A stretch of 64,000 nt of DNA from a bacterium (GCA_919901855.1 CAKKQC010000006.1:217896-281895); one strand, 5' to 3'; shown: positions 6,693 to 47,013, numbered from the stretch's first letter. The notes: generated by a model from the letters alone, not told the origin. Made by a program: numbers and translations.

Positions 6693-6698
6693 TAGGGT
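6693..6698 (+). promoter_or_regulatory. Putative -10 element (TAGGGT) of the DUF11 locus
   Basis: TAGGGT lies 7 nt before the GTG at 6706. A CTGAAC hexamer 17 nt further upstream is a weak -35 candidate. The spacing places the transcript start at or next to the start codon. The 230 nt between this gene and the HD-GYP gene show no other clear feature except a small CCCC-AAAAA-GGGG inverted repeat near 6643-6656. Confidence 0.35.
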
Positions 6699-6705
6699 GT
6701 TAACC

Positions 6706-9609
6706 GTGAGAGTGCGTTCCGAGGAAGCCTGCCCAGTAAGGCTCCGGCGGGCCGCCCGGGTGATCCGGACGGCCGTCGCGGGCCTCTGCCTCCTCGCCGT
6801 CCCCGCCCGGGCGGCGCGGATCGGGCTGGTGCCCCTCATGGGGGACGGGGCCGCCGGCCGCACGATCGTGCTCTCGGGCAACTGCTTCGAGCCGTCAACC
6901 ACCTACACGATCCGGATCGGGGGATTCGCGGTCCTGCCCGCCACCGTCACCTCGTCCGCCGGGGGCGTCATCGCCAACACGACACTGACCCTGCCCGACC
7001 TCCCGCGGGGCAACCTCGACGTCATGCTCGCCTCCGCCACCATGACCAGGTCCTTCACCGGGGCCTTCCGGGTCTGGCCCAATCTCTGCGTCTCTCCGGT
7101 GATTGGAGGGGGCCGGTTCGGGGAGACGTGGGAGACCAATGTCGCCATCCCGACGGGTGGGTGGGTGGGCATGGTCTTCCGGGTCGAGGGCTGGGGGTTC
7201 GCCGGGGGGGCCACCATCGGGGCGAACACGATCACGGTCGGGGGTGCGGCCACGACGCATCCGGCCATCCCGGTATCGGCCGGGGGACGGTTCCAGTCGG
7301 CGACCATCATCGTCTCGAGCAACCTGCCGAACGGGAACCAGAGCATCGTGATCAACGATGGGGCCGGCAACACGTTCACCGGGGCCTACCAGGTCCGGCG
7401 GTCGATCGCCATGAGTCCCGCCAAGGGCTACGGGGCCCTCGGTTCGACGATCCTGATCGAGGGCTGGGGATTCACGCCGGGGACGACGGGGGCGATCACG
7501 GTCGGCCTGGCCACGACCACGCCGGGGCCGGGGCTGGCGGTCGCGGCCGACGGGTCGTTCGCGGGGACGGTCAGGCTCCAGGGCGATCCCGGCGGCGGGC
7601 AGGTGGCGGTCACCACGGGCCAGGGGAGCTTCCCCAACTGCTACAACGACACGACCGCCGGAACCCGCCAGCTCGGCATCTACCCGGTGACCCCAGACGG
7701 GCCGGAGAACGGGGCGATCCGGATCGAGGGGATGGGGAACTGGTCGAACGGGACCATCGCCGCGGACTCGGTGACGGTGCAGGTACCCGGGGGCGACGTG
7801 CCGACGACGCACCCCGCGATCCCGGTCGCGAACGGCCGGTTCCCGCGACGGTGGATCGTGGTGACCGACACGATCGAGCTCAACGCGCGGGGGCTCTCTA
7901 TGGCCAACGGGGGCAAGCAGACCAACCAGGCGTTCTACAGCCGTAGAAACCTGGGCGCTTGCCCCGTGTACTCCGACGGGACCGCGGGGTTCACGACGAC
8001 GATCACGGGCTGGTCGTTCGACCAGGGCTCGGCGATCGCGGCCAACTCGACCACGGTGGGCGGGGTGACGACCACGCATGCGGGAACGAAGGTGGATATC
8101 TACGGCGAACTGCCTCCCCTGGCCGTCGCCCTGCCGGCCCTGCCGAACGGGAATCTCGCCGTCGTGGTCACGGACAGCGCGGTCACCTCGTTCGCGTCGA
8201 TCATGCACGCGCGCCGGACGATCGGGCTCTCGTATGTGGTCGGGCCGGGGTCCGCGGGCGATGTCACGAACCTCACCGGCAACGGTTTCGTCGCTGGCGC
8301 TATCGGGGCGAACACGATCACGTTCGGCGGGACGGCGGTCGCGCACGCCGGGATCGTGGTGACGGCCAACGGGAACTTCGCCTCCACCGCCCTGACCCTG
8401 CCTGCGCTGGCCGGAGGTCCGAAGGACGTCGTCGCCCAGGGCGGCGAGGTTTTTCCCCAGGCGTTCCGGGTGGCGACGGTCGGGCTGACGGTGGTGAAGA
8501 CCCAGACCCCGGTTGCTCCCGGGATCGGGGAACTCGTGACGTACCGGGTGGTGGTGACGAACACGGGGACCGGGATGCTCACGAACCTGACGTTGACGGA
8601 CACGCTGTCGCCCGTGGTCGTGAGCGCGTCGGCGAGCGAGCCGTCCGGCTGGCCGACGCCCGCCGTGACCCAGGCGGCCGCGGGCACGCTGTTCTCGTGG
8701 AGCAACGGCGCGCCGGGCCTCGCCCCCGGCATGGCGCTGACGTTCACGATCACGGGACGGATGGGGCTCGTGTGCGCGAACACGCAGGTGAGCAACACGG
8801 CGTTTGCGACGGGGAGCGACGGGTGCGGTGGCGTGGCAGTCGCGGTCCGGAGCGCGGTGGGCAGCATCGTGGCGCCGCCGACGATGAGCCTGACCGTGGT
8901 GAAGGCCCATGTGCCGGCGGCGCCGGTCAACGGCGGGAATGTGACCTTCTCCATCATCGTGACGAACGCAGGGACGGCGACCCTCACGGGCCTCACGATC
9001 GTGGACACGCTGAGCGGGAGCATCACCTGCGTCAGCCAGACGAGCGATCCGGCCCTGGCGTGGAACGGGAACGCGTCCACCGTGGGCTGGGCGGGGGCGG
9101 TCGTCGTCGGACCCAATGCCTCGGCTACGGTGACCGTCACTGCGACCAATACGGCTCCCAACGCGGGCTGGATTTCGAACACGGTCTGGGTGCAGGCAAC
9201 GACCGCGTGCGGGACCGTGCAGGCCTCCGCACTCGATCCGGGCTACCTGCTGGCTGCTCCGGTCCTGACAGTCGCCAAATCGAGCAGTCAGCCCAAGGGT
9301 GCAAGGGGCGCCGTGATCACGTACTCGATCACGTTGAGCAACATGCGGGTCGCCGGGGGCGCCTGCGGGGATCCCTGGATGACGGCGAAGGGCATCGTCT
9401 TTCAGGACACAGTGCCGGCGGGAATGACGTTCAACGCCGGCACTCTCCAGATTTCCACGAACAACGGCGCGACTTTCAATCCCGCCGCGAACCTGGGGGT
9501 GCTGCCGCTCATCGCCGTGGCGGTTCCGGACATGAACGAGGGCGACGGCGATCCCGTGTGCCTGCCCGGCAACGCCGTCGTCGTCAAGTTCGATGTGACC
9601 GTGCAGTGA
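6706..9609 (+). CDS. Large secreted repeat protein: IPT-like repeats followed by DUF11 domains
   Basis: About 967 residues. A basic, then hydrophobic N terminus ending in VPARAA looks like a Sec signal peptide. Next come about six repeats of 90-100 residues (to about residue 595) sharing patterns such as IEGWGF, GANTITVGG, TTHPAIPV and LPNGN; they read like IPT/TIG or Ig-like beta domains. Three DUF11-type domains follow (about 597-715, 720-850, 855-967) with LTVVKTQTP, VTNTGTG, LTDTLSP and LTVAKSSSQ signatures. DUF11 proteins are surface or extracellular beta-sandwich proteins. The last domain resembles the two small paralogues downstream. I chose GTG 6706 because of the -10 element 7 nt before it; GTG 6697 is an alternative. 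No sorting signal is recognised. Confidence 0.8.
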   Translation: MRVRSEEACPVRLRRAARVIRTAVAGLCLLAVPARAARIGLVPLMGDGAAGRTIVLSGNCFEPSTTYTIRIGGFAVLPATVTSSAGGVIANTTLTLPDLPRGNLDVMLASATMTRSFTGAFRVWPNLCVSPVIGGGRFGETWETNVAIPTGGWVGMVFRVEGWGFAGGATIGANTITVGGAATTHPAIPVSAGGRFQSATIIVSSNLPNGNQSIVINDGAGNTFTGAYQVRRSIAMSPAKGYGALGSTILIEGWGFTPGTTGAITVGLATTTPGPGLAVAADGSFAGTVRLQGDPGGGQVAVTTGQGSFPNCYNDTTAGTRQLGIYPVTPDGPENGAIRIEGMGNWSNGTIAADSVTVQVPGGDVPTTHPAIPVANGRFPRRWIVVTDTIELNARGLSMANGGKQTNQAFYSRRNLGACPVYSDGTAGFTTTITGWSFDQGSAIAANSTTVGGVTTTHAGTKVDIYGELPPLAVALPALPNGNLAVVVTDSAVTSFASIMHARRTIGLSYVVGPGSAGDVTNLTGNGFVAGAIGANTITFGGTAVAHAGIVVTANGNFASTALTLPALAGGPKDVVAQGGEVFPQAFRVATVGLTVVKTQTPVAPGIGELVTYRVVVTNTGTGMLTNLTLTDTLSPVVVSASASEPSGWPTPAVTQAAAGTLFSWSNGAPGLAPGMALTFTITGRMGLVCANTQVSNTAFATGSDGCGGVAVAVRSAVGSIVAPPTMSLTVVKAHVPAAPVNGGNVTFSIIVTNAGTATLTGLTIVDTLSGSITCVSQTSDPALAWNGNASTVGWAGAVVVGPNASATVTVTATNTAPNAGWISNTVWVQATTACGTVQASALDPGYLLAAPVLTVAKSSSQPKGARGAVITYSITLSNMRVAGGACGDPWMTAKGIVFQDTVPAGMTFNAGTLQISTNNGATFNPAANLGVLPLIAVAVPDMNEGDGDPVCLPGNAVVVKFDVTVQ

Positions 9610-9692
9610 GTCCTTCATGCCGGCTTGATGCAGTCGGGTTTCGACAACTCGGTCGCGGAGGCCCGATCAGCCTTCACGGCCTTCACTCCCAA

Positions 9693-9725
9693 CCCCGGTC
9701 CGGGTCGATCACCCGGTCGGGCGAA
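9693..9725 (+). repeat. GC palindrome leader, copy 1
   Basis: CCCCGGTCCGGGT is followed by CACCCGGTCGGGCGAA, ending 4 nt before the AAGGAG ribosome-binding site of the first small DUF11 gene. The same two-palindrome arrangement precedes the second paralogue at 10586-10613. It may form one or two hairpins in the leader; the function is unknown. Confidence 0.5.
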
Positions 9726-9743
9726 CAAAAGGAGATCACGAAA

Positions 9744-10307
9744 ATGGTTCGCAACCGAACGATGGCAGCAATGGCAGTGGCGGCGGTTATGGCGGCGGGG
9801 GCCGCGCAGGCGGTCACGACGATCACGAACACGGCGTCCGCGAATTTCACGAACGAGGCGGCGGTGGCCCAGACGGCGGTCACCGGTTCGACGACGTTCA
9901 CGGCGCAGAGCGATCCCGTCCTGTCGGTAATCAAGACGGGCGACAAGGCGGCGGGCCCGTCGGGCACGGTCGTCACGTGGCGCGTCCGGGTGGCGTATCC
10001 CCGGGTCGCGGACGTTCCGCTCGTCTGCGGAGACGATTCCAAGGCCCAGGGCGTCGTGATCACGGACCCGATCCCGGCCGGATTCACGTACAGCGCGGGG
10101 ACCTTGCGGGTTTCGAACGACGACGCCGTGACCTTCTCGGTCGCGACCGACGCGGTCGGGGGCGATCCCCTCGGCTTTGACGTCTCGTTTGGCGCCGGGA
10201 CGGTGACCGCGAACTGCCCGGATCTCGTCGAGGGCCAGGGGGACACCGTGAACTGCGGCGCTTCGCCCGCGGCACTCGTCATCGAGTTCAAGGCGACCAA
10301 GAACTAG
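9744..10307 (+). CDS. Small secreted DUF11-type protein, tandem paralogue 1
   Basis: 187 residues from the ATG at 9744, preceded by AAAGGAG at 9728-9734; the long upstream extension of this frame is non-coding shadow. A signal peptide (about 1-22, ending GAAQA) is followed by an N-terminal strand motif, TTITNTASANFTNEAAVAQ, and one DUF11-like domain (about 55-187) with VLSVIKTGDKAAGPSGTVV, ITDPIPAGFTYSAGTL and two cysteine-containing segments (LVCGDD, NCPDL). It is the same length as, and nearly identical to, the next gene. The product is probably an exported subunit or surface protein. Domain resemblance to the C-terminal DUF11 unit of the large upstream protein suggests they act together. 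Confidence 0.8.
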   Translation: MVRNRTMAAMAVAAVMAAGAAQAVTTITNTASANFTNEAAVAQTAVTGSTTFTAQSDPVLSVIKTGDKAAGPSGTVVTWRVRVAYPRVADVPLVCGDDSKAQGVVITDPIPAGFTYSAGTLRVSNDDAVTFSVATDAVGGDPLGFDVSFGAGTVTANCPDLVEGQGDTVNCGASPAALVIEFKATKN

Positions 10308-10452
10308 AGGGATTCGAAGCGGGCAGGAGACCGTCGCAGGACGATCCGCTTGTCGCCACCCAGGGGTCCGGCACTGTCGCGTGGACAGCCATCATGCCGG
10401 GGGGATCCGCCGCTCGCGCGCGGGGTCCGCTCCGGAGTCCATGGGTTCCGAA

Positions 10453-10465
10453 CCAAGGGGTCAGT
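10453..10465 (+). repeat. Spacer block CCAAGGGGTCAGT, copy 1
   Basis: A thirteen-base block identical to 11351-11363. In both places it follows a GCGGGGT segment and a short imperfect hairpin (TCCGGA...TTCCGA here, CCTGGA...TCCAGG in the second copy). It may be part of a conserved leader or a duplication remnant. Confidence 0.45.
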
Positions 10466-10585
10466 GCGTCCGCTTGATTCACGAGGCTTCGTGTTGCGAA
10501 CCGAAGACGGCGGATGGCTCTTGGAGAGCCAACCGCAAGAGATGACATGACCGCGGGGCCTGATCAGTCCCGTGGGGGAAACCAG

Positions 10586-10613
10586 CCCCGGCCGGGGTTT
10601 CCACCCGGCCGGG
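10586..10613 (+). repeat. GC palindrome leader, copy 2
   Basis: CCCCGGCCGGGG (10586-10597) and CCCGGCCGGG (10604-10613) are two perfect palindromes separated by TTTCCA. They end 10 nt before the ribosome-binding site of the second small DUF11 gene. The arrangement matches 9693-9725; copy 1 carries T where this copy has C at the centre of each palindrome. Confidence 0.5.
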
Positions 10614-10639
10614 CTAAGACTACGGAGGAAACAGAGACA

Positions 10640-11203
10640 ATGTTGCGCAACAAACTCAATTTCGCAGTGCTTTCGGCGGTGATGCTGACGGCGGGGGCCG
10701 CGAACGCGGTCACGACGATCACGAACACGGCGACCGCGAACTTCAATAACGAGGCGGCGGTGGCCCAGACGGCCGTCCTCGGTTCGACGACGTTCACGGC
10801 GCAGAGCGACCCCGTCCTGGCGGTCGTGAAGACGGGCGACAAGGCGTCGGGCCCTTCGGGCACGGTGGTGACGTGGCAGATCCGGGTGGCGTATCCCCGG
10901 ATCGCGGATGTCCCGCTCATCTGCGGCGATGACTCGAAGGCGACGAGCGTCGTGATCACGGACCCGATTCCGGCCGGATTCACGTACAGCGCCGGGACCC
11001 TGCGGGTTTCGAACGACGACGGTGCGACTTTCTCGGCGGCGACCGACGCGGTCGGGGGCGATCCCCTCGGCTTCGACGTTTCGGAGTCCGGCGGCCTCGT
11101 GACCGCGAACTGCCCGGACCTCGTCGAGGGGCAGGGGGACACCGTGAACTGCGCAACCTCGCCGGATGCGCTCGTCATCGAGCTCCAGGCGACAAAAAAC
11201 TAG
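10640..11203 (+). CDS. Small secreted DUF11-type protein, tandem paralogue 2
   Basis: 187 residues from the ATG at 10640, with GGAGGAA at 10624-10630 as ribosome-binding site. The architecture matches paralogue 1: signal peptide (ending GAANA), strand motif TTITNTATANFNNEAAVAQ, then a DUF11-like domain with LAVVKTGDKASGPSGTVV, ITDPIPAGFTYSAGTL and the same cysteines. Differences are concentrated in the signal peptide and at scattered domain positions, so this is a recent tandem duplication kept in frame. Each copy has its own strong ribosome-binding site and leader, which fits high expression of an exported subunit. The function is not established. Confidence 0.8.
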   Translation: MLRNKLNFAVLSAVMLTAGAANAVTTITNTATANFNNEAAVAQTAVLGSTTFTAQSDPVLAVVKTGDKASGPSGTVVTWQIRVAYPRIADVPLICGDDSKATSVVITDPIPAGFTYSAGTLRVSNDDGATFSAATDAVGGDPLGFDVSESGGLVTANCPDLVEGQGDTVNCATSPDALVIELQATKN

Positions 11204-11216
11204 TTAGGGTAGCGGA

Positions 11217-11238
11217 GGCGGACGGGAGACCCGTCTGC
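11217..11238 (+). terminator. Hairpin after the second DUF11 paralogue
   Basis: GGACGGG-AGA-CCCGTCT forms a stem of about 7-9 bp (one G-T pair) starting 14 nt after the stop codon. There is no T-run, so it may stabilise or end the transcript only in part. Confidence 0.35.
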
Positions 11239-11350
11239 TAAGAATCCGCGGACGTCCCCTGGGCAGGCGATGGCCTTTGCCACGGGGCGAGCCGCTGCAT
11301 CGTGCTCCGTACCCGCGGGGTGACCCGCCCTGGAATGATCATCCTCCAGG

Positions 11351-11363
11351 CCAAGGGGTCAGT
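11351..11363 (+). repeat. Spacer block CCAAGGGGTCAGT, copy 2
   Basis: Identical to 10453-10465 and found at the matching place in the spacer before the FlgD-Ig gene. A shorter form, CCAAGGG, sits directly before that gene's ATG (11420-11426). Confidence 0.45.
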
Positions 11364-11426
11364 CCGCCCTGTGAACGGGGTAGCCCGGCGAACGGGATCG
11401 CCAGAACCGTTCCGCGGGACCAAGGG

Positions 11427-12239
11427 ATGAGTCTGTCCTGGCGGCCGCCAATGATCACGGCGGCAGCGATCCTCCTGACCGGCCTGGCGGCGTTGGCCGG
11501 GGCCTCCTACGACATCACGAACACGGCCTACGTGAACTGCCGTAACTCCGCGGGCGTTGCGCAACCGCCCGTGAGTTCCTCCACATCGTTCACGGTGACC
11601 GATGGGACGATCGTGGTGCCGCCCCCGCCTCTTCCCGCGAATGCCGTGGTCGTGAGCATCTTTGACACGTCGGGGCGGCTCATTCGCACCCTGGCGGTCG
11701 AAGCGACCGACGAAGGCGTGACCCTCAGGTCCGTGGGTGACGGTTCGGGGCACGCCTCCCTGGCCGCCGGGGCCGGGGTCGCGATCGTGCTGTCCGACGG
11801 CACCCGCATCCTCTGGGACGGCCGGGACGGGTCGGGAATCCCCGTGCCCAACGGGCTCTACACCGTGCGATTGTCGGACGTTCGGCCCGATGGCCGGGAG
11901 GTCGTCTCGACCGCCACGGTCGCGGTCACGCGCCCCTACGAGCGCGTGATCGAGACGGCGGTCATGGTGCCGAACCCGGCTGACGAGGTGGCGTGGATCA
12001 GCTTCCGGCTCGCCGACGCGACCGGGACTGTCGACGTCAGGATCTACAACGTCGCGGGCGAGCTCGTGGCGAAGGGGTCCGCGCCGGGCACTGCCAGATC
12101 GTACCGGTGGGATCTCCGGAACCGTTCCGGCACGCGCGTGACTCCGGGCCTCTACGTCGTCGTCCTGGAAGCCACGGATTCCACCGGGGTCCGTAAGGAT
12201 CGGGCGATCATGAAGCTCGCCGTGGAGAGGGGTCGATGA
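11427..12239 (+). CDS. Secreted protein with two FlgD-type Ig-like domains
   Basis: 270 residues from the ATG at 11427. The hydrophobic N terminus (about 10-25) is a signal peptide. It is followed by YDITNTAYVNCRNSAGVAQ, the same strand motif that opens the two DUF11 paralogues, and a proline-rich linker (VVPPPPLP). Two FlgD_ig-like beta domains follow: about 75-165 (VVVSIFDTSGRLIRTL, WDGRDGSGIPVPNGLYTVRL) and about 175-268 (VRIYNVAGELV, WDLRNRSGTRVTPGLYVVVL). Such domains end many exported proteins in FCB-type bacteria and resemble sorting or anchoring modules. The shared N-terminal motif ties it to the DUF11 proteins. Its stop overlaps the next start. Confidence 0.75.
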   Translation: MSLSWRPPMITAAAILLTGLAALAGASYDITNTAYVNCRNSAGVAQPPVSSSTSFTVTDGTIVVPPPPLPANAVVVSIFDTSGRLIRTLAVEATDEGVTLRSVGDGSGHASLAAGAGVAIVLSDGTRILWDGRDGSGIPVPNGLYTVRLSDVRPDGREVVSTATVAVTRPYERVIETAVMVPNPADEVAWISFRLADATGTVDVRIYNVAGELVAKGSAPGTARSYRWDLRNRSGTRVTPGLYVVVLEATDSTGVRKDRAIMKLAVERGR

Positions 12240-13570
12240 TGCTCCGGGCGTGCGCGCTCCTCGCCGGCCTGGCGGCCGTTTCGGGCTCCATCGCCGCGAC
12301 GGTCGATCCGGGCGGGTTGTCCGGGACGACCCCGCGGGCCGTCGCGCTCGCGGGGTCGGACGTGGCTTATGTCGGCGGCTCGCCGCTCACCGGCGGGTCG
12401 GTGGCCGATCTGGCGCGGCTCGACGGGCCGGCGCTGGCCGGCGGTGGCGGCGTCGCGACCCGCGGGGGCGGCACGGGGCTGTCGCTCCGGGGTGGCGGCG
12501 CCGTGGAAGGTTTTGGCGTCGCGGGAAGCGCGGTGCGGTGGTCGCGCGGGGTCGCGCGCGGCCTCGACGCCGGGGTCGCGGCCGCCACACCCGCCGGGCC
12601 GCTGCCGGGCGTGTCCTTCGGGCTGGGGCTAGATGTGCTGACCCGGGCCCTCGGCTCCGACACCGCGGCCGGCCTCTCCATGGACCTCGGCGTATCCGGC
12701 CGGTTCGATCTGCGGTGGCAGGGAGTCGAGGTGGCGGCGGCGGCCGCGCTCGAGCACGCGCTCGGGACCCTGAGCTGGGACTCGGGGGCGACGGAGCAGG
12801 TGCCGTCCCGGACACGGCTGGGCCTCGGGGTCCACCGCGGCCCGGTTGCGGTCGTCACCGAGCTCGCGCTCGTGCGCGGCCCCGGGGCCCGCGAGGGGGT
12901 CTGGGGCGCCGGCGTGGAACACGCCTTCGCGATCTCGGGCCTGCCCGTTGCGGCCCGCGCCGGGTGGCATGACCGGCCGGGGACGGTGTGCGCCGGATTC
13001 GGCGCCGCGCTGGGGGCCGCGACCCTGGACTACGCGGTCGCGGCCGGACGCATCGGCGTCCTCCATTCGCTCGCGGTCGGGTGGCGGTTCCCGGGCCCGG
13101 GAGCCGGGGCTTCGGCCGCCCCGCGACGCTTGGCGTCGCCCCGCGCGTCCCGGCCGGGAACGACCGGCCGTCCGGCCGGGCGCGATGCCGAAGTCGTGCC
13201 GGAACGGGACGTCTTCGCGCTCGACAACCCCTGGCGGACCATGGCCCTCGCGATCCGGGTGCCGGCGGACGAGGCGACCCGGAGCTGGACGGTCCTGATC
13301 TCGGCGCCGGATGGCACCGTGGTCTGGGAGGCCGCGGGCGACGGGGTGCCGCCGCGCGCCGTGACCTGGGCCGGCACGTCGGTGACGGGGGAGCCGGTCG
13401 CGGCCGGGACCTACACTTGCCGGCTCCTGCTCCGCGGCGCCGCCGCCCCCGACTACCTGTCGCCGGGCTCCGCGATCCGGGTCGTGCGCCCGCCGCTGCG
13501 CGCGGCGTCGCCAGGGCCGACGCTTGGCGGATTCGACGTGCCCGACGCGGCGGCGGGAGGCGGACGATGA
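12236..13570 (+). CDS. Outer-membrane PorV-like barrel with C-terminal FlgD-Ig-like domain
   Basis: 444 residues, starting at ATGATG overlapping the previous stop. A signal peptide (about 1-20) is followed by TPRAVALAGSDVAYVGG, a segment like the start of PorV/UPF0164 outer-membrane proteins (GARSAALGGA pattern). Residues 60-300 are Gly/Ala-rich with alternating beta strands, consistent with a beta barrel. After a basic Pro/Arg/Ser linker (about 295-325) comes a FlgD-Ig-like domain (about 335-430: NPWRTMALAIRV, WTVLISAPDGTVVWE, VAAGTYTCRLLL). The next gene encodes a paralogue with the same layout. It is probably an outer-membrane partner for the secreted proteins upstream; the barrel assignment rests on pattern only. 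Confidence 0.65.
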   Translation: MMLRACALLAGLAAVSGSIAATVDPGGLSGTTPRAVALAGSDVAYVGGSPLTGGSVADLARLDGPALAGGGGVATRGGGTGLSLRGGGAVEGFGVAGSAVRWSRGVARGLDAGVAAATPAGPLPGVSFGLGLDVLTRALGSDTAAGLSMDLGVSGRFDLRWQGVEVAAAAALEHALGTLSWDSGATEQVPSRTRLGLGVHRGPVAVVTELALVRGPGAREGVWGAGVEHAFAISGLPVAARAGWHDRPGTVCAGFGAALGAATLDYAVAAGRIGVLHSLAVGWRFPGPGAGASAAPRRLASPRASRPGTTGRPAGRDAEVVPERDVFALDNPWRTMALAIRVPADEATRSWTVLISAPDGTVVWEAAGDGVPPRAVTWAGTSVTGEPVAAGTYTCRLLLRGAAAPDYLSPGSAIRVVRPPLRAASPGPTLGGFDVPDAAAGGGR

Positions 13571-14862
13571 GAACGCGCCTCCACCTCGCCCCGGTGGTCT
13601 GCCTGGTTGGCGCGCTGGCGGCGGGGGCGGCGACGGCCGCGTTCGAGAAGGGGGGGCTGATCGACGCCTCCCCGCGGTCGGCGGCGCTCGCCGGATCGGA
13701 TTTCGCGGCCGGCGAGGGCCTCTCTTCCGGATGCGCGGCCGCGCTGCCGGAACTCCGCGGGCCGGACGCGCTCGGGAGCTTCGGCGCGGCGACGCGGGCC
13801 GGACTGAACGCGGTCCTGCTCCGCACGGGCGGGATCGTCGGGGGCTTGGGGGTCGGCGCCTCGTTCCGGAATCTCGCCGCGGGGGACACGGCCGAGCGGA
13901 CCTGGGCGGCCGGGCTCGGGATGCCGGTGGAGGAGGTGCCGGGGCTCTCGCTCGGCGCGGCCCTCAAGGTGATGGAGGCGGATCTCCACGATGACAACGC
14001 GACCGGGTTCGGACTCGACTTCGCGATCCGGGGCCGCATGCCGGTCCGGGTCGAGGGGCTCGAGGTCGACGCCGCCGCCGGGGTGGACGACGCGTTCGGG
14101 AGCCTCGCGTGGAAGAGCGGGCTCCGGGAGGACGTCGCGCGGCAGTGGCGGCTGGCGCTGGCGGCCCGGATCGATGGCGCGCTGGCCGCGACGGCCGAGG
14201 GCCGGCTCGTGCGCGGGCCCGCGGCGCGCGAGGGAATCTGGGCCTTCGGATTCGAGCAGCCCCTCGCCGTGCGCGGTGTGGACGGCGCGATCCGGATCGG
14301 GTGGCGGGACGGCACGGCCAGGGACGGAACGCTGTCGGCGGGAGTGGGCGTGACCGTGGGGCAGGGGAGACTCGAGTACGCGATCGCGGGCGCCGCGCGG
14401 AGCCAGGGCTACCTGCACCTCGCCTCCCTGCGCTGGCAACTGGGGCAGGGCGACGTGCTGGAGGGGATCGCGACCGCGGGGGCCGCGCCCGGCGGGACCG
14501 CTTCCGGATCCGGCGTTATGCCGGAGTCGGAGATGCTGGTCGCCTCGAGTCCGTGGCGGACGTTCACGTTCACGATCCGTCCGCCGAAGGGGGGCCGCAT
14601 CGAGGGCTGGACGGTGCTCATCCTCGATCGCGCCGGCGGGGTGGTCTGGTCGGCCGAGGGCGAAGGCGCCCCGCCCGCGTCGCTGGACTGGAACGGGTCC
14701 ACCCAGCGCGGAGTCGCCACGCCCGCAGGCCGATACCGCGTCCAGCTCGTCGTGCGGGGTCCCGGGGCGATCCGCAGCGTCTCGCCGGCCGCGGAGTTCC
14801 GGCTGGTCCGTCCGCCCGAGCCCGCCCGGGGGCCCGAGCCGGAGGCCGAAGGTGGGTACTGA
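13567..14862 (+). CDS. Outer-membrane PorV-like barrel with C-terminal FlgD-Ig-like domain, paralogue
   Basis: 431 residues; the ATG overlaps the previous stop (ATGA), and the longer upstream frame is shadow. Signal peptide about 1-24, then SPRSAALAGSDFAAGEG, a close match to the PorV-like opening of the upstream gene and to the ALGGA pattern of the family. Barrel-like strands cover about 70-310, and a FlgD-Ig-like C terminus covers about 330-415 (SPWRTFTFTIRP, WTVLILDRAGGVVWS, ATPAGRYRVQLVV). Two adjacent paralogues may form a hetero-oligomer or serve different cargo. This is the last gene of the surface locus; yqeK starts within 2 nt, so read-through into housekeeping genes is likely. Confidence 0.65.
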   Translation: MRTRLHLAPVVCLVGALAAGAATAAFEKGGLIDASPRSAALAGSDFAAGEGLSSGCAAALPELRGPDALGSFGAATRAGLNAVLLRTGGIVGGLGVGASFRNLAAGDTAERTWAAGLGMPVEEVPGLSLGAALKVMEADLHDDNATGFGLDFAIRGRMPVRVEGLEVDAAAGVDDAFGSLAWKSGLREDVARQWRLALAARIDGALAATAEGRLVRGPAAREGIWAFGFEQPLAVRGVDGAIRIGWRDGTARDGTLSAGVGVTVGQGRLEYAIAGAARSQGYLHLASLRWQLGQGDVLEGIATAGAAPGGTASGSGVMPESEMLVASSPWRTFTFTIRPPKGGRIEGWTVLILDRAGGVVWSAEGEGAPPASLDWNGSTQRGVATPAGRYRVQLVVRGPGAIRSVSPAAEFRLVRPPEPARGPEPEAEGGY

Positions 14863-44905: not shown

Positions 44906-46090
44906 ATGACGCGCGAGGACCTGCTGTCGGCGTTCCGCGACGCGTGCACGCGCCGGGACTATCTCAGGGCGCTCCAGGCCTGCCGGGACATGCTCGCGCT
45001 GAACGGCCGCGACGCGATGGCCTGGCGGAACATGTCCGGCATCTACTTCGCCCTCGGTCAGGACGCCGAGGCGCTCGAGACGAACCGGCACGCGATGGAC
45101 CTCGACCCCAAGGACCCCTACGCCTACTACAACTTCGGCGCGCTGGCCTCGCGGTCGGAGAAGTACGACGACGCGATCCGATGGTTCAACAAGGTGGTGG
45201 AGCTGGCTCCGGATATCGGGGACGGGTATCTCGGGCTCGCGACTGCGTACCTCAAGATCGGGGACACCGGAAACGCGGTGTTCAATTTCTCGCAGGCGTA
45301 CCAGCGGGCGCCCGAGAATCCCGATGTCGCCCGCGGATTCGGTCTGGCCCTCATGGAGATCGGCCAGCTTCCGAAGGCCGAGTACTACCTCCGGCAGGCG
45401 CTCGAGAAGTACCCGGACTGGGCGGAGCTCCACATGGAGCTGGGCGAGGTCCTGCGGCTGCTCGGCGAGGATCGCGACGCCGTGGCCGAGCTGCTGGCGG
45501 GCCTGCGCGTGAAGCACAAGCCCGAGGGGCTCGTGAGCCTGTCGCGCGTGCACCTCAAGTACAAGGAGCCCCGGAAGGCGATCCCGCACCTCCACCGCGC
45601 GCTTCAGCTCGCGCCGAACCACGCTCCCGCGTACCACGTGCTCGGGCTCGCGCTGGCCGCCGAGAAGGACTGGCCCGGGGCGGTCGCCCAATTCGAGCGC
45701 GCGTACGCGCTCGGTCAGGACAACGCCGAGTACGTGCTTGACCTCGCGAACGCGCTCGTGAACGCCGGGGTGGACATCGAGCGCGCGCACCGCCTCGCGG
45801 CGGCGGTCCAGATCAAGGACTCGGCGAATCCCCGCGCGCACGACGTGGCGGGCTGGTGCCTCTTCCGGCTCGGCCAGCACCAGGAGGCGCACCAGGAGCT
45901 GGAGAAGGCCCGCGCCCTGATCGAGGTCAAGGGCACGCGCCAGCCGTCCGACGCGTCCATCTACGAGCACCTGGCCGAGGTCTACACCGCCTTCAAGGAC
46001 GGCATGATGGCCCGTGAGATGTATGCCCGCGCGATCGAGTCGGACCCGTCCCGCCGGGAGGAATGGGCGAGGCGGGGCCAGGGAGCCTGA
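44906..46090 (+). CDS. TPR-repeat protein
   Basis: 394 residues, made almost wholly of about ten 34-residue tetratricopeptide repeats (for example AWRNMSGIYFALGQDAEALETN, AYYNFGALASRSEKYDDAIRWF). No signal peptide or membrane helix. It starts 23 nt after the barrel gene and is probably co-transcribed. A scaffold role is likely; partners unknown. Confidence 0.85.
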   Translation: MTREDLLSAFRDACTRRDYLRALQACRDMLALNGRDAMAWRNMSGIYFALGQDAEALETNRHAMDLDPKDPYAYYNFGALASRSEKYDDAIRWFNKVVELAPDIGDGYLGLATAYLKIGDTGNAVFNFSQAYQRAPENPDVARGFGLALMEIGQLPKAEYYLRQALEKYPDWAELHMELGEVLRLLGEDRDAVAELLAGLRVKHKPEGLVSLSRVHLKYKEPRKAIPHLHRALQLAPNHAPAYHVLGLALAAEKDWPGAVAQFERAYALGQDNAEYVLDLANALVNAGVDIERAHRLAAAVQIKDSANPRAHDVAGWCLFRLGQHQEAHQELEKARALIEVKGTRQPSDASIYEHLAEVYTAFKDGMMAREMYARAIESDPSRREEWARRGQGA

Positions 46091-46140
46091 AGGCGCCGTG
46101 ACACAGGCGCTGAAGCGCGTGGTAAGGTAGGGAAGCTTAC

Positions 46141-47013
46141 ATGATGGACATCCCGGCGGTGGAACTGGTTCTCGATGCGAAGGCCCAGCTCGGCGAAGGC
46201 GCCCTCTGGTCGGCCCGCGCCCGCCTGCTCTACTGGATCGACATCGATCCGGGGCTCGTCCACCTCTACGACCCCGCGACGGGGAAGAACCGGACCCTGG
46301 AGCTCGGTCAGCCCATCGGTACGATCGTGCCCCGGGCGAAGGGGGGCGCCATGGTCGCGCTCCGCGACGGGTTCGCCTCGCTCGACCTCGAGTCGGGCAA
46401 GCTGACCTTCCTGGCCGATCCCGAGAAGGACCTCAAGGGGAACCGGTTCAACGATGGCAAGTGCGATCCGGCTGGCCGGTTCTGGGCGGGCACGCTCGGC
46501 AAGGTTCCGGGCGCCCTATACCGGATGGACCGGGATCTCTCGGTCCACCGCATGTTCGGCGACGTCAAGTGCTCGAACGGGATCGCGTGGAGCCTCGACC
46601 GGAAGACCATGTACTACATCGACACCCCGACCGGGTACGTGGAAGCCTGGGACTACGACGATGCGACGGGCGCGATCGCGAAGCGGCGGGTGTGCATCCG
46701 GATCCCCAAGGAGAACGGGTCCCCGGACGGGTGCACGCTCGACGCGGACGGGAACCTGTGGGTCGCCCACTGGGGCGGCTCGAACGTGACCTGCTACGAC
46801 CCGAGGACCGGGAAGGCGCTTCATCAGATCCGTGTTCCGGCCTCGTTGGTGACCTCGGTCGCCTTCGGCGGCCCCGACCTCGACATTCTTTACATCACCA
46901 CAGCCCGGGTGGGGCTCTCGGATGAAGAGCTCAAGAAGCAGCCGCTGGCCGGCGGACTGTTCAAGTGCAAGCCCGGCGTGAAGGGAATCCCGGCCCCGGA
47001 GTTCGGCGGATGA
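46141..47013 (+). CDS. SMP-30/gluconolactonase-family protein
   Basis: 290 residues. Six-bladed propeller pattern with LGEGALWSARARLLYWIDID (Glu metal ligand), NRFNDGKCDPAGRFWAGT (Asn/Asp ligands), SNGIAWSLD and GSPDGCTLDADGNLWVAHWGG (Asp). All metal-ligand motifs are present. The family hydrolyses sugar lactones, for example gluconolactone. It overlaps the SDR gene by 4 nt, giving a likely sugar-oxidation pair: dehydrogenase makes the lactone, lactonase opens it. Confidence 0.9.
   Translation: MMDIPAVELVLDAKAQLGEGALWSARARLLYWIDIDPGLVHLYDPATGKNRTLELGQPIGTIVPRAKGGAMVALRDGFASLDLESGKLTFLADPEKDLKGNRFNDGKCDPAGRFWAGTLGKVPGALYRMDRDLSVHRMFGDVKCSNGIAWSLDRKTMYYIDTPTGYVEAWDYDDATGAIAKRRVCIRIPKENGSPDGCTLDADGNLWVAHWGGSNVTCYDPRTGKALHQIRVPASLVTSVAFGGPDLDILYITTARVGLSDEELKKQPLAGGLFKCKPGVKGIPAPEFGG

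Follow-up and report, generated by a model that had tools for sequence, protein, structure and literature searches.

Gene content of the locus

The window analysed here is a stretch of 64,000 nucleotides within the 4.68-Mb assembly (G000) of an uncultured bacterium, Candidatus Coatesbacteria. ORF calls on the window gave six closely packed ORFs at 6706-14862, all on the plus strand, and N-terminal signal peptides of the locus proteins are evident by eye; an earlier note on this DNA had described six co-directional genes for proteins with signal peptides, and all of these ORFs are present. Features are listed with the evidence for each.

6706..9609, plus strand: 967-residue exported protein with a TIG-like N-terminal part, two complete DUF11 domains and a terminal DUF11 without its last hairpin; acceptor only, proposed tip (family scan, domain model, relative G001)
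8479..9261, plus strand: complete DUF11 domains D1 and D2 of the large protein (full-length match, model positions 2/3-128 of 129; both among the 14 training domains)
9259..9606, plus strand: terminal incomplete DUF11 (D3) of the large protein, with K858 codon 9277-9279 and D901 codon 9406-9408 (model match ends at position 62 of 129)
9744..10307, plus strand: small subunit 1, 187 residues, permuted DUF11 with donor hairpin and acceptor body (profile and model matches)
9813..9908, plus strand: donor hairpin of subunit 1, Asn29 codon 9828-9830 (hairpin profile, DNA motif)
9915..10304, plus strand: acceptor body of subunit 1, Lys64 codon 9933-9935, Asp108 codon 10065-10067 (alignment, domain model)
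10640..11203, plus strand: small subunit 2, 187 residues, permuted DUF11 with donor hairpin and acceptor body (profile and model matches, AlphaFold2 model)
10709..10804, plus strand: donor hairpin of subunit 2, Asn29 codon 10724-10726 (hairpin profile, DNA motif; strands 32-37 and 42-47 in the model)
10811..11200, plus strand: acceptor body of subunit 2, Lys64 codon 10829-10831, Asp108 codon 10961-10963 (alignment, domain model)
11427..12239, plus strand: 270-residue FlgD-Ig protein (FlgD protein) with donor hairpin, no DUF11 body and a T9SS type-A-like C-terminal domain; donor only, proposed base (family scans, hairpin profile)
11505..11600, plus strand: orphan donor hairpin of the FlgD protein, Asn32 codon 11520-11522 (hairpin profile, DNA motif)
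12236..13570, plus strand: predicted outer-membrane barrel with FlgD-Ig-like domain, paralogue 1, 444 residues (weak family match, profile-profile comparison)
13567..14862, plus strand: predicted outer-membrane barrel with FlgD-Ig-like domain, paralogue 2, 431 residues (weak family match, profile-profile comparison; syntenic with an HD gene and argS in G001)

The large-protein ORF starts with GTG at 6706 (an alternative in-frame GTG lies at 6697), good Shine-Dalgarno sequences precede both 187-residue genes, and ATGA overlaps occur at the last two gene junctions (270-aa/444-aa and 444-aa/431-aa). The spacers before small subunit 2 and the FlgD gene share an identical 13-base sequence, CCAAGGGGTCAGT, at 10453-10465 and 11351-11363. 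Between positions 12001 and 16000 of the window, over the barrel genes, G+C content reaches 75-77% and AT skew is strongly negative.

Family scans of the large protein detected DUF11 at 79.2 bits (Pfam cut-off 24.6) and TIG only weakly (13.2 versus 20.9), which upholds the DUF11 half of its earlier description as 'IPT-like/DUF11' and leaves the IPT-like half weak. The two 187-residue paralogues named in the same note are present and 80% identical (dN 0.094, dS 0.319), the low dN relative to dS indicating that both are under purifying selection; as DUF11 proteins, however, they score under the family cut-off (16.8 and 19.5) and cover only profile positions 2-54 of 114, a partial match that we attribute to circular permutation of the domain. 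The FlgD-Ig assignment of the 270-residue protein is borne out by an FlgD_ig score of 66 against a cut-off of 27; this protein also exceeds the cut-offs for T9SS sorting domains (Por_Secre_tail PF18962, 31.8/27; TIGR04183, 37.3/23). FlgD_ig matches at the C-terminus of both barrel genes are sub-threshold.

Small proteins as permuted DUF11 domains

DUF11 was renamed CLIPPER after crystal structure 9IFR, which contains a Lys-Asn isopeptide bond with an Asp nearby (PMC12617251). Eight complete domains of these loci were made into a profile, which matched 9IFR with an E value of 7e-10 and aligned Lys715 and Asn806 with the invariant Lys and Asn. The aligned aspartate of 9IFR lies one residue after the Asp748 of the published table (PMC12617251), which we take to be a difference in numbering. 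Only this complete-domain profile reached 9IFR; sequence searches of solved structures with the small proteins, the DUF11 part of the large protein and the barrels returned nothing useful. Lys, Asp and Asn are invariant in 14/14 complete domains and also in the four small proteins of the two loci found, in which K64 and D108 lie in the body and N29 in the hairpin. As in DUF11/CLIPPER domains generally, the Lys lies near the start of the body and the Asp in an xxDxxP motif. The Asn-bearing last strand, expected C-terminal to the body on the same chain, is not in that place in the small subunits, the third DUF11 of the large protein (D3) or the FlgD protein.

Directly behind the signal peptide, the small proteins begin with xTITNTAxANFxNEAAVAQTAVxGSTTFT, and they end in ALVIExxATKN. 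A model of the 14 complete domains matched complete domains in order over positions 2-129; on the small proteins, the same model placed the body (3-84) C-terminally and the hairpin (87-127, individually weak) N-terminally, which is the reversed order. The connection between the two halves is seen in a 1431-residue protein encoded on contig C12 of the same assembly, in which a body 46-51% identical to the small proteins is followed directly by ISNTVFVNYADGKGAAQPVVLSSADFT and then by other domains. We built a hairpin profile from the six N-terminal hairpins of two loci (the window and the relative G001) and ran it against 44 Coatesbacteria genomes; at E <= 0.01 it matched the six source N-termini and the C12 segment only. 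The C12 hairpin (46407-46493) lies directly downstream of the C12 body (46011-46388) and was matched with an E value of 1.5e-6 genome-wide and 1.6e-8 in a small set. At the DNA level, the window has three matches to the hairpin motif pattern (0.00 expected), one at the start of each small protein and one at the start of the FlgD protein. A hairpin model derived from complete domains, compared with shuffles, gave significant N-terminal scores for many but not all donors (p = 0.13 for the window FlgD protein; not significant for the Methylotenera subunits described below), and the main support for permutation therefore comes from the C12 protein and the profile of N-terminal hairpins. By sequence homology, then, the 187-residue proteins are circularly permuted DUF11 (CLIPPER) domains, with the Asn hairpin at the mature N-terminus and a C-terminus that stops at the usual hairpin position. 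The C12 protein itself (G000:C12:43194-48800; L014:5195-10799) is exported and combines the unpermuted subunit domain with Kelch-like and FlgD-Ig parts; a PorV-family gene comes after it.

An AlphaFold2 model of small subunit 2 from five sequences had a mean pLDDT of 62.8, with most body blocks at 65-86; the hairpin formed two strands (32-37 and 42-47) at low confidence (pLDDT 52-64). Among the top Foldseek matches of this model were two pilins of Gram-positive bacteria, the basal pilin EbpB and FimP, at weak E values of 0.018-0.058. VIA-align listed Cna-type domains and pilin domains together with unrelated Ig-like folds, all with Z scores of at most 7.8, not above background; since Z scores below 8 are at the level of the common Ig arrangement, the result is compatible with pilin likeness but is not proof of it. 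Structure 9IFR was absent from the VIA-align listing, which is no evidence against CLIPPER identity.

Acceptor-only and donor-only partners

By homology to complete domains, the small subunits lack a strand and carry a complementary donor at the other terminus, the arrangement that characterizes donor-strand exchange. The remaining two proteins of the presumed chain each carry one half. The last DUF11 of the large protein, whose D3 is 39% identical to a small subunit, stops where the hairpin would begin in both the window and G001, and no hairpin was found 3' of its stop codon in any frame in the window. Conversely, the FlgD protein has a hairpin right behind its signal peptide and, in the window copy, no DUF11 body. 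In G001, a complete DUF11 follows the N-terminal hairpin of the FlgD protein, and because this DUF11 has its own hairpin the protein is still donor-only as far as the contig reaches. The presence, in both species, of an unpaired body and an unpaired hairpin within one operon makes sense if hairpins pair with bodies in trans. Such pairing could place the Lys-Asn bond between neighbouring proteins, and with the triad split in this way the links between subunits could be covalent. The distance from Asn to Lys is 35 residues in the small subunits and 31-39 between successive domains of tandem arrays, so that small subunits joined in a chain would be equivalent to a tandem array minus the peptide bond at the body-hairpin junctions.

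Alternatively, each hairpin may fold into the DUF11 body of its own chain, giving self-complemented monomers that act as ordinary soluble or surface-attached Ig proteins and form no fibre. The small proteins are single-domain, and the linker of the AlphaFold2 model (13 residues, 48-60) might be able to reach across the domain. Closure in cis nevertheless leaves the bodiless hairpin of the FlgD protein and the hairpinless body of the large protein in the same operon unexplained, and the linker is as long as those of tandem arrays, in which a hairpin and the next body belong to different domains. We consider such self-closure unlikely, and the proteobacterial subunits described below also speak against it.

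Conservation in a relative

G001 is the sole other sequenced member of the same Coatesbacteria family, and it is the one relative with the locus, there split over separate contigs. Its 3.8-kb contig C166 (L034; JAHFSL010000336.1) encodes the large protein, two small proteins and the FlgD protein in the order of the window, the small proteins being 43-49% identical to those of the window; the gene set that the earlier note had grouped is to this extent kept together in the only relative available. The large protein's N-terminal part lies at the abutting end of contig C105, with enolase upstream. Contig C620 carries a barrel gene (45% identical to the second window barrel), an HD gene, a short gene and argS, the same arrangement as in the window. 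The earlier note had also pointed to a REC/HD-GYP regulator directly upstream; because enolase takes the upstream place in G001, that gene lies outside the conserved unit, and we rejected it as a component.

Among 45 Coatesbacteria genomes, the small proteins are confined to this one family. A first single-sequence scan of the genome collection gave no match, and no relatives were found among plasmid records and viral contigs. Both G001 small subunits carry a Cys pair within the hairpin (L034 1618-1713 and 2409-2504), possibly a disulfide staple, that is absent from the window proteins. Very long ORFs (about 2000-3300 residues) with many DUF11 repeats occur on G001 contigs C80, C357, C520 and others.

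Analogous operons in Proteobacteria

Six proteobacterial genomes contain analogous operons (L035, L036, L037, L038, L073 and L074). Scanning named genomes yielded the Cocleimonas, Thiotrichaceae and Methylotenera loci, and a search of the Methylotenera family added two genomes; within that family the operon is rare (3/150 genomes). In complete stretches the order is a subunit, a DUF11-like protein of 162-189 residues, one or two more subunits, a protein of ~1700-2000 residues and a protein whose last DUF11 is incomplete. In the subunits (344-449 residues), the mature N-terminus carries the hairpin and the C-terminus an incomplete DUF11, with a different domain between them. A whole domain thus separates hairpin from body, and fold-back in cis would have to bypass it.

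The ~1700-2000-residue protein has an N-terminal hairpin, is donor-only and, by its pattern, ends in a barrel. The barrel-like end of the donor-only protein suggests a polarity in which the donor-only protein is the base and the acceptor-only protein the tip; by analogy, the FlgD protein of the window would be the base and its large protein the tip. The 162-189-residue DUF11-like protein adjoins the first subunit gene (L035:10359-10880, L036:1364-1879, L037:10254-10817, L073:5356-5844 and L074:15242-15811). It shows no clear donor hairpin, and in those sequences that were read it has Asn in place of the catalytic-site Asp (xxNPxP), making it a candidate cap or chaperone. We found no literature on these operons or on DUF11 donor-strand assembly in a search that largely excluded subscription journals and preprints.

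Export and anchoring

The FlgD protein has the marks of type IX cargo, with a sorting domain above cut-off and the SprA translocon in the genome; no type IX sorting domain was detected by family scans in the small subunits or the large protein. SprA was found in 12/13 Coatesbacteria genomes searched, against 0/14 control genomes (G000 TIGR04189, 204.8/200). With the gene at G000:C23:70116-73514 and those of other Coatesbacteria, SprA homologues occur outside Bacteroidota together with PorV paralogues, and PorU was not found. For the PorU sortase in G000 (assembly 93% complete), only the C-terminal sorting part of NF033707 matched, with nothing above cut-off. A search for the usher PF00577 in G000, G001 and G002 gave no match at E <= 0.01 (the E. 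coli control was positive), and the family scan detected no PapD-like chaperone among the six locus proteins.

The two barrel genes (12236-14862) gave no match to the PorV family (NF033709) at E <= 0.01, though 15 other G000 genes exceed the cut-off for that family. Comparison with PorV by hhalign gave a moderate match with a probability of 63.8 and an E value of 6.6e-5, the C-terminal half aligning co-linearly, versus E 0.87 for a DUF11 control. An AlphaFold2 barrel model from two sequences had a mean pLDDT of 37.6. Of the earlier reading as barrel-plus-FlgD-Ig proteins, the C-terminal domain does fold in this model (about 75-90), but the FlgD_ig matches there fall short of threshold and the barrel part (20-41) is unusable. 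Likeness of the barrels to PorV is thus weakly supported by the sequence comparison, and the anchor or exit role proposed for them is not established. As a reasonable guess, the FlgD protein may be exported via a type IX-like route, with the barrels serving as its partners in the outer membrane.

A predicted surface fibre

We conclude that the locus probably encodes a surface fibre. In the assembly predicted from its sequences, circularly permuted DUF11/CLIPPER domains exchange donor strands, each exported subunit inserting its N-terminal hairpin into the groove of the one before it, which would give a chain that runs from the large protein (tip) through (small 1 / small 2)n to the FlgD protein (base). 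The K-D-N triad would be reassembled at each junction, where an autocatalytic Lys-Asn isopeptide bond could join neighbours as it does within one CLIPPER domain. The base protein has a T9SS-type sorting domain, and the type IX-like machinery of the phylum would probably retain it on the cell surface, with the barrels as outer-membrane partners. The earlier suggestion that the large protein sits at one end and the small paralogues are repeating subunits agrees with this domain logic. That reading had overlooked that the domain is circularly permuted, that the FlgD protein has an orphan hairpin and that the triad is split, and it is these features that turn a 'possible fibre' into a specific mechanism. 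More tentatively, the system may be an enzyme-free covalent pilus, in which strand exchange and an autocatalytic Lys-Asn weld at each junction suffice and no usher or sortase takes part, present in diderms from Coatesbacteria to Proteobacteria.

The same strand-exchange chemistry could also build a short, fixed hetero-complex of the large protein, the two small proteins and the FlgD protein, one copy each (for example a stalked adhesin), and not a long polymer. There are exactly two small paralogues, and their order is kept in both genomes. On the other hand, at 80% identity and with hairpins that are nearly the same, the paralogues carry no sequence feature that would enforce a 1:1 order, and the proteobacterial operons have two or three subunit genes; we regard a fixed complex as improbable. 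That these are ordinary type IX cargo and PorV-like shuttles, sharing DUF11 and FlgD-Ig modules with no joint assembly, would suit a genome rich in such genes (15 PorV-family proteins, sorting domains) and the related giant DUF11/FlgD protein beside a PorV gene on C12, but is very improbable given that gene order is kept in a relative at 43-49% identity, that the hairpin motif is limited to the locus proteins and C12 across 44 genomes, and that the small subunits are without a sorting domain.

Relation to known systems

The fibre that we propose has a functional parallel in chaperone-usher pili (type 1, P and archaic CUP), whose subunits are without a C-terminal strand and have an N-terminal donor, with an acceptor-only tip behind head domains and a donor-only end. 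The window locus shares this layout of donors and acceptors at the sequence level; its protein family is unrelated in sequence, no usher was found in the genome and an isopeptide triad is present. By its sequences, the locus has the acceptor, subunit and donor roles of a pilus assembled by donor-strand exchange but no detectable usher, and would work like a chaperone-usher pilus without being one, built of CLIPPER domains whose closing strand lies outside their own domain. With CLIPPER/DUF11 (PF01345, PDB 9IFR) it shares the fold family, the invariant Lys, Asp and Asn and a recognisable body and hairpin. CLIPPER is a stalk domain of fibrillar adhesins with an intramolecular Lys-Asn isopeptide bond, and the survey of these domains gives only intramolecular DUF11 bonds (PMC12617251); in the window the domain is permuted and split between proteins, and the bond would be intermolecular. 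Type IX secretion (SprA, PorV, type A C-terminal domain) is shared through the sorting domain of the FlgD protein and through SprA and the PorV family in the genome, but not through the small subunits and large protein, which have no sorting domain, nor through PorU, which was not found.

Archaeal threads (Saci_0406) are head-to-tail donor-strand fibres with a Sec/SPI signal peptide and a proposed intermolecular isopeptide bond from the N-terminal amine of Asp24 to Asn57 two subunits away; DUF11 is unmentioned in that work (PMC9715654). They resemble the window system in the idea of a donor-strand fibre and differ in details of the fold and in chemistry, which is not Lys-Asn. SnoopTag/SnoopCatcher and SpyTag are engineered splits of Gram-positive adhesins or pilins that join spontaneously and covalently. 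DogTag is likewise described as an isopeptide domain split into strand and body that joins covalently and spontaneously (PMC8878318). These tag/catcher systems are engineered, whereas the window proteins would be a natural polymerising counterpart. In the P29a/P29b region of Clostridium taeniosporum, small paralogous proteins of the spore appendages lie beside DUF11-containing proteins (PMC5749712); those appendages, in contrast to the window system, are Gram-positive spore ribbons with a collagen-like partner.

Few surface domains are as widespread in bacteria and archaea as DUF11, which, although recently recognized as an isopeptide domain, has been seen only as a passive stalk module. If its permuted copies polymerise, a whole class of diderm fibres has gone unseen, because annotation labels the subunits 'DUF11 domain-containing protein'. 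The rule for finding them can be read from sequence: a hairpin at the mature N-terminus, a C-terminal body lacking one, and two neighbours, one acceptor-only and the other donor-only. Such fibres would, if real, be the natural equivalent of engineered tag/catcher chemistry.
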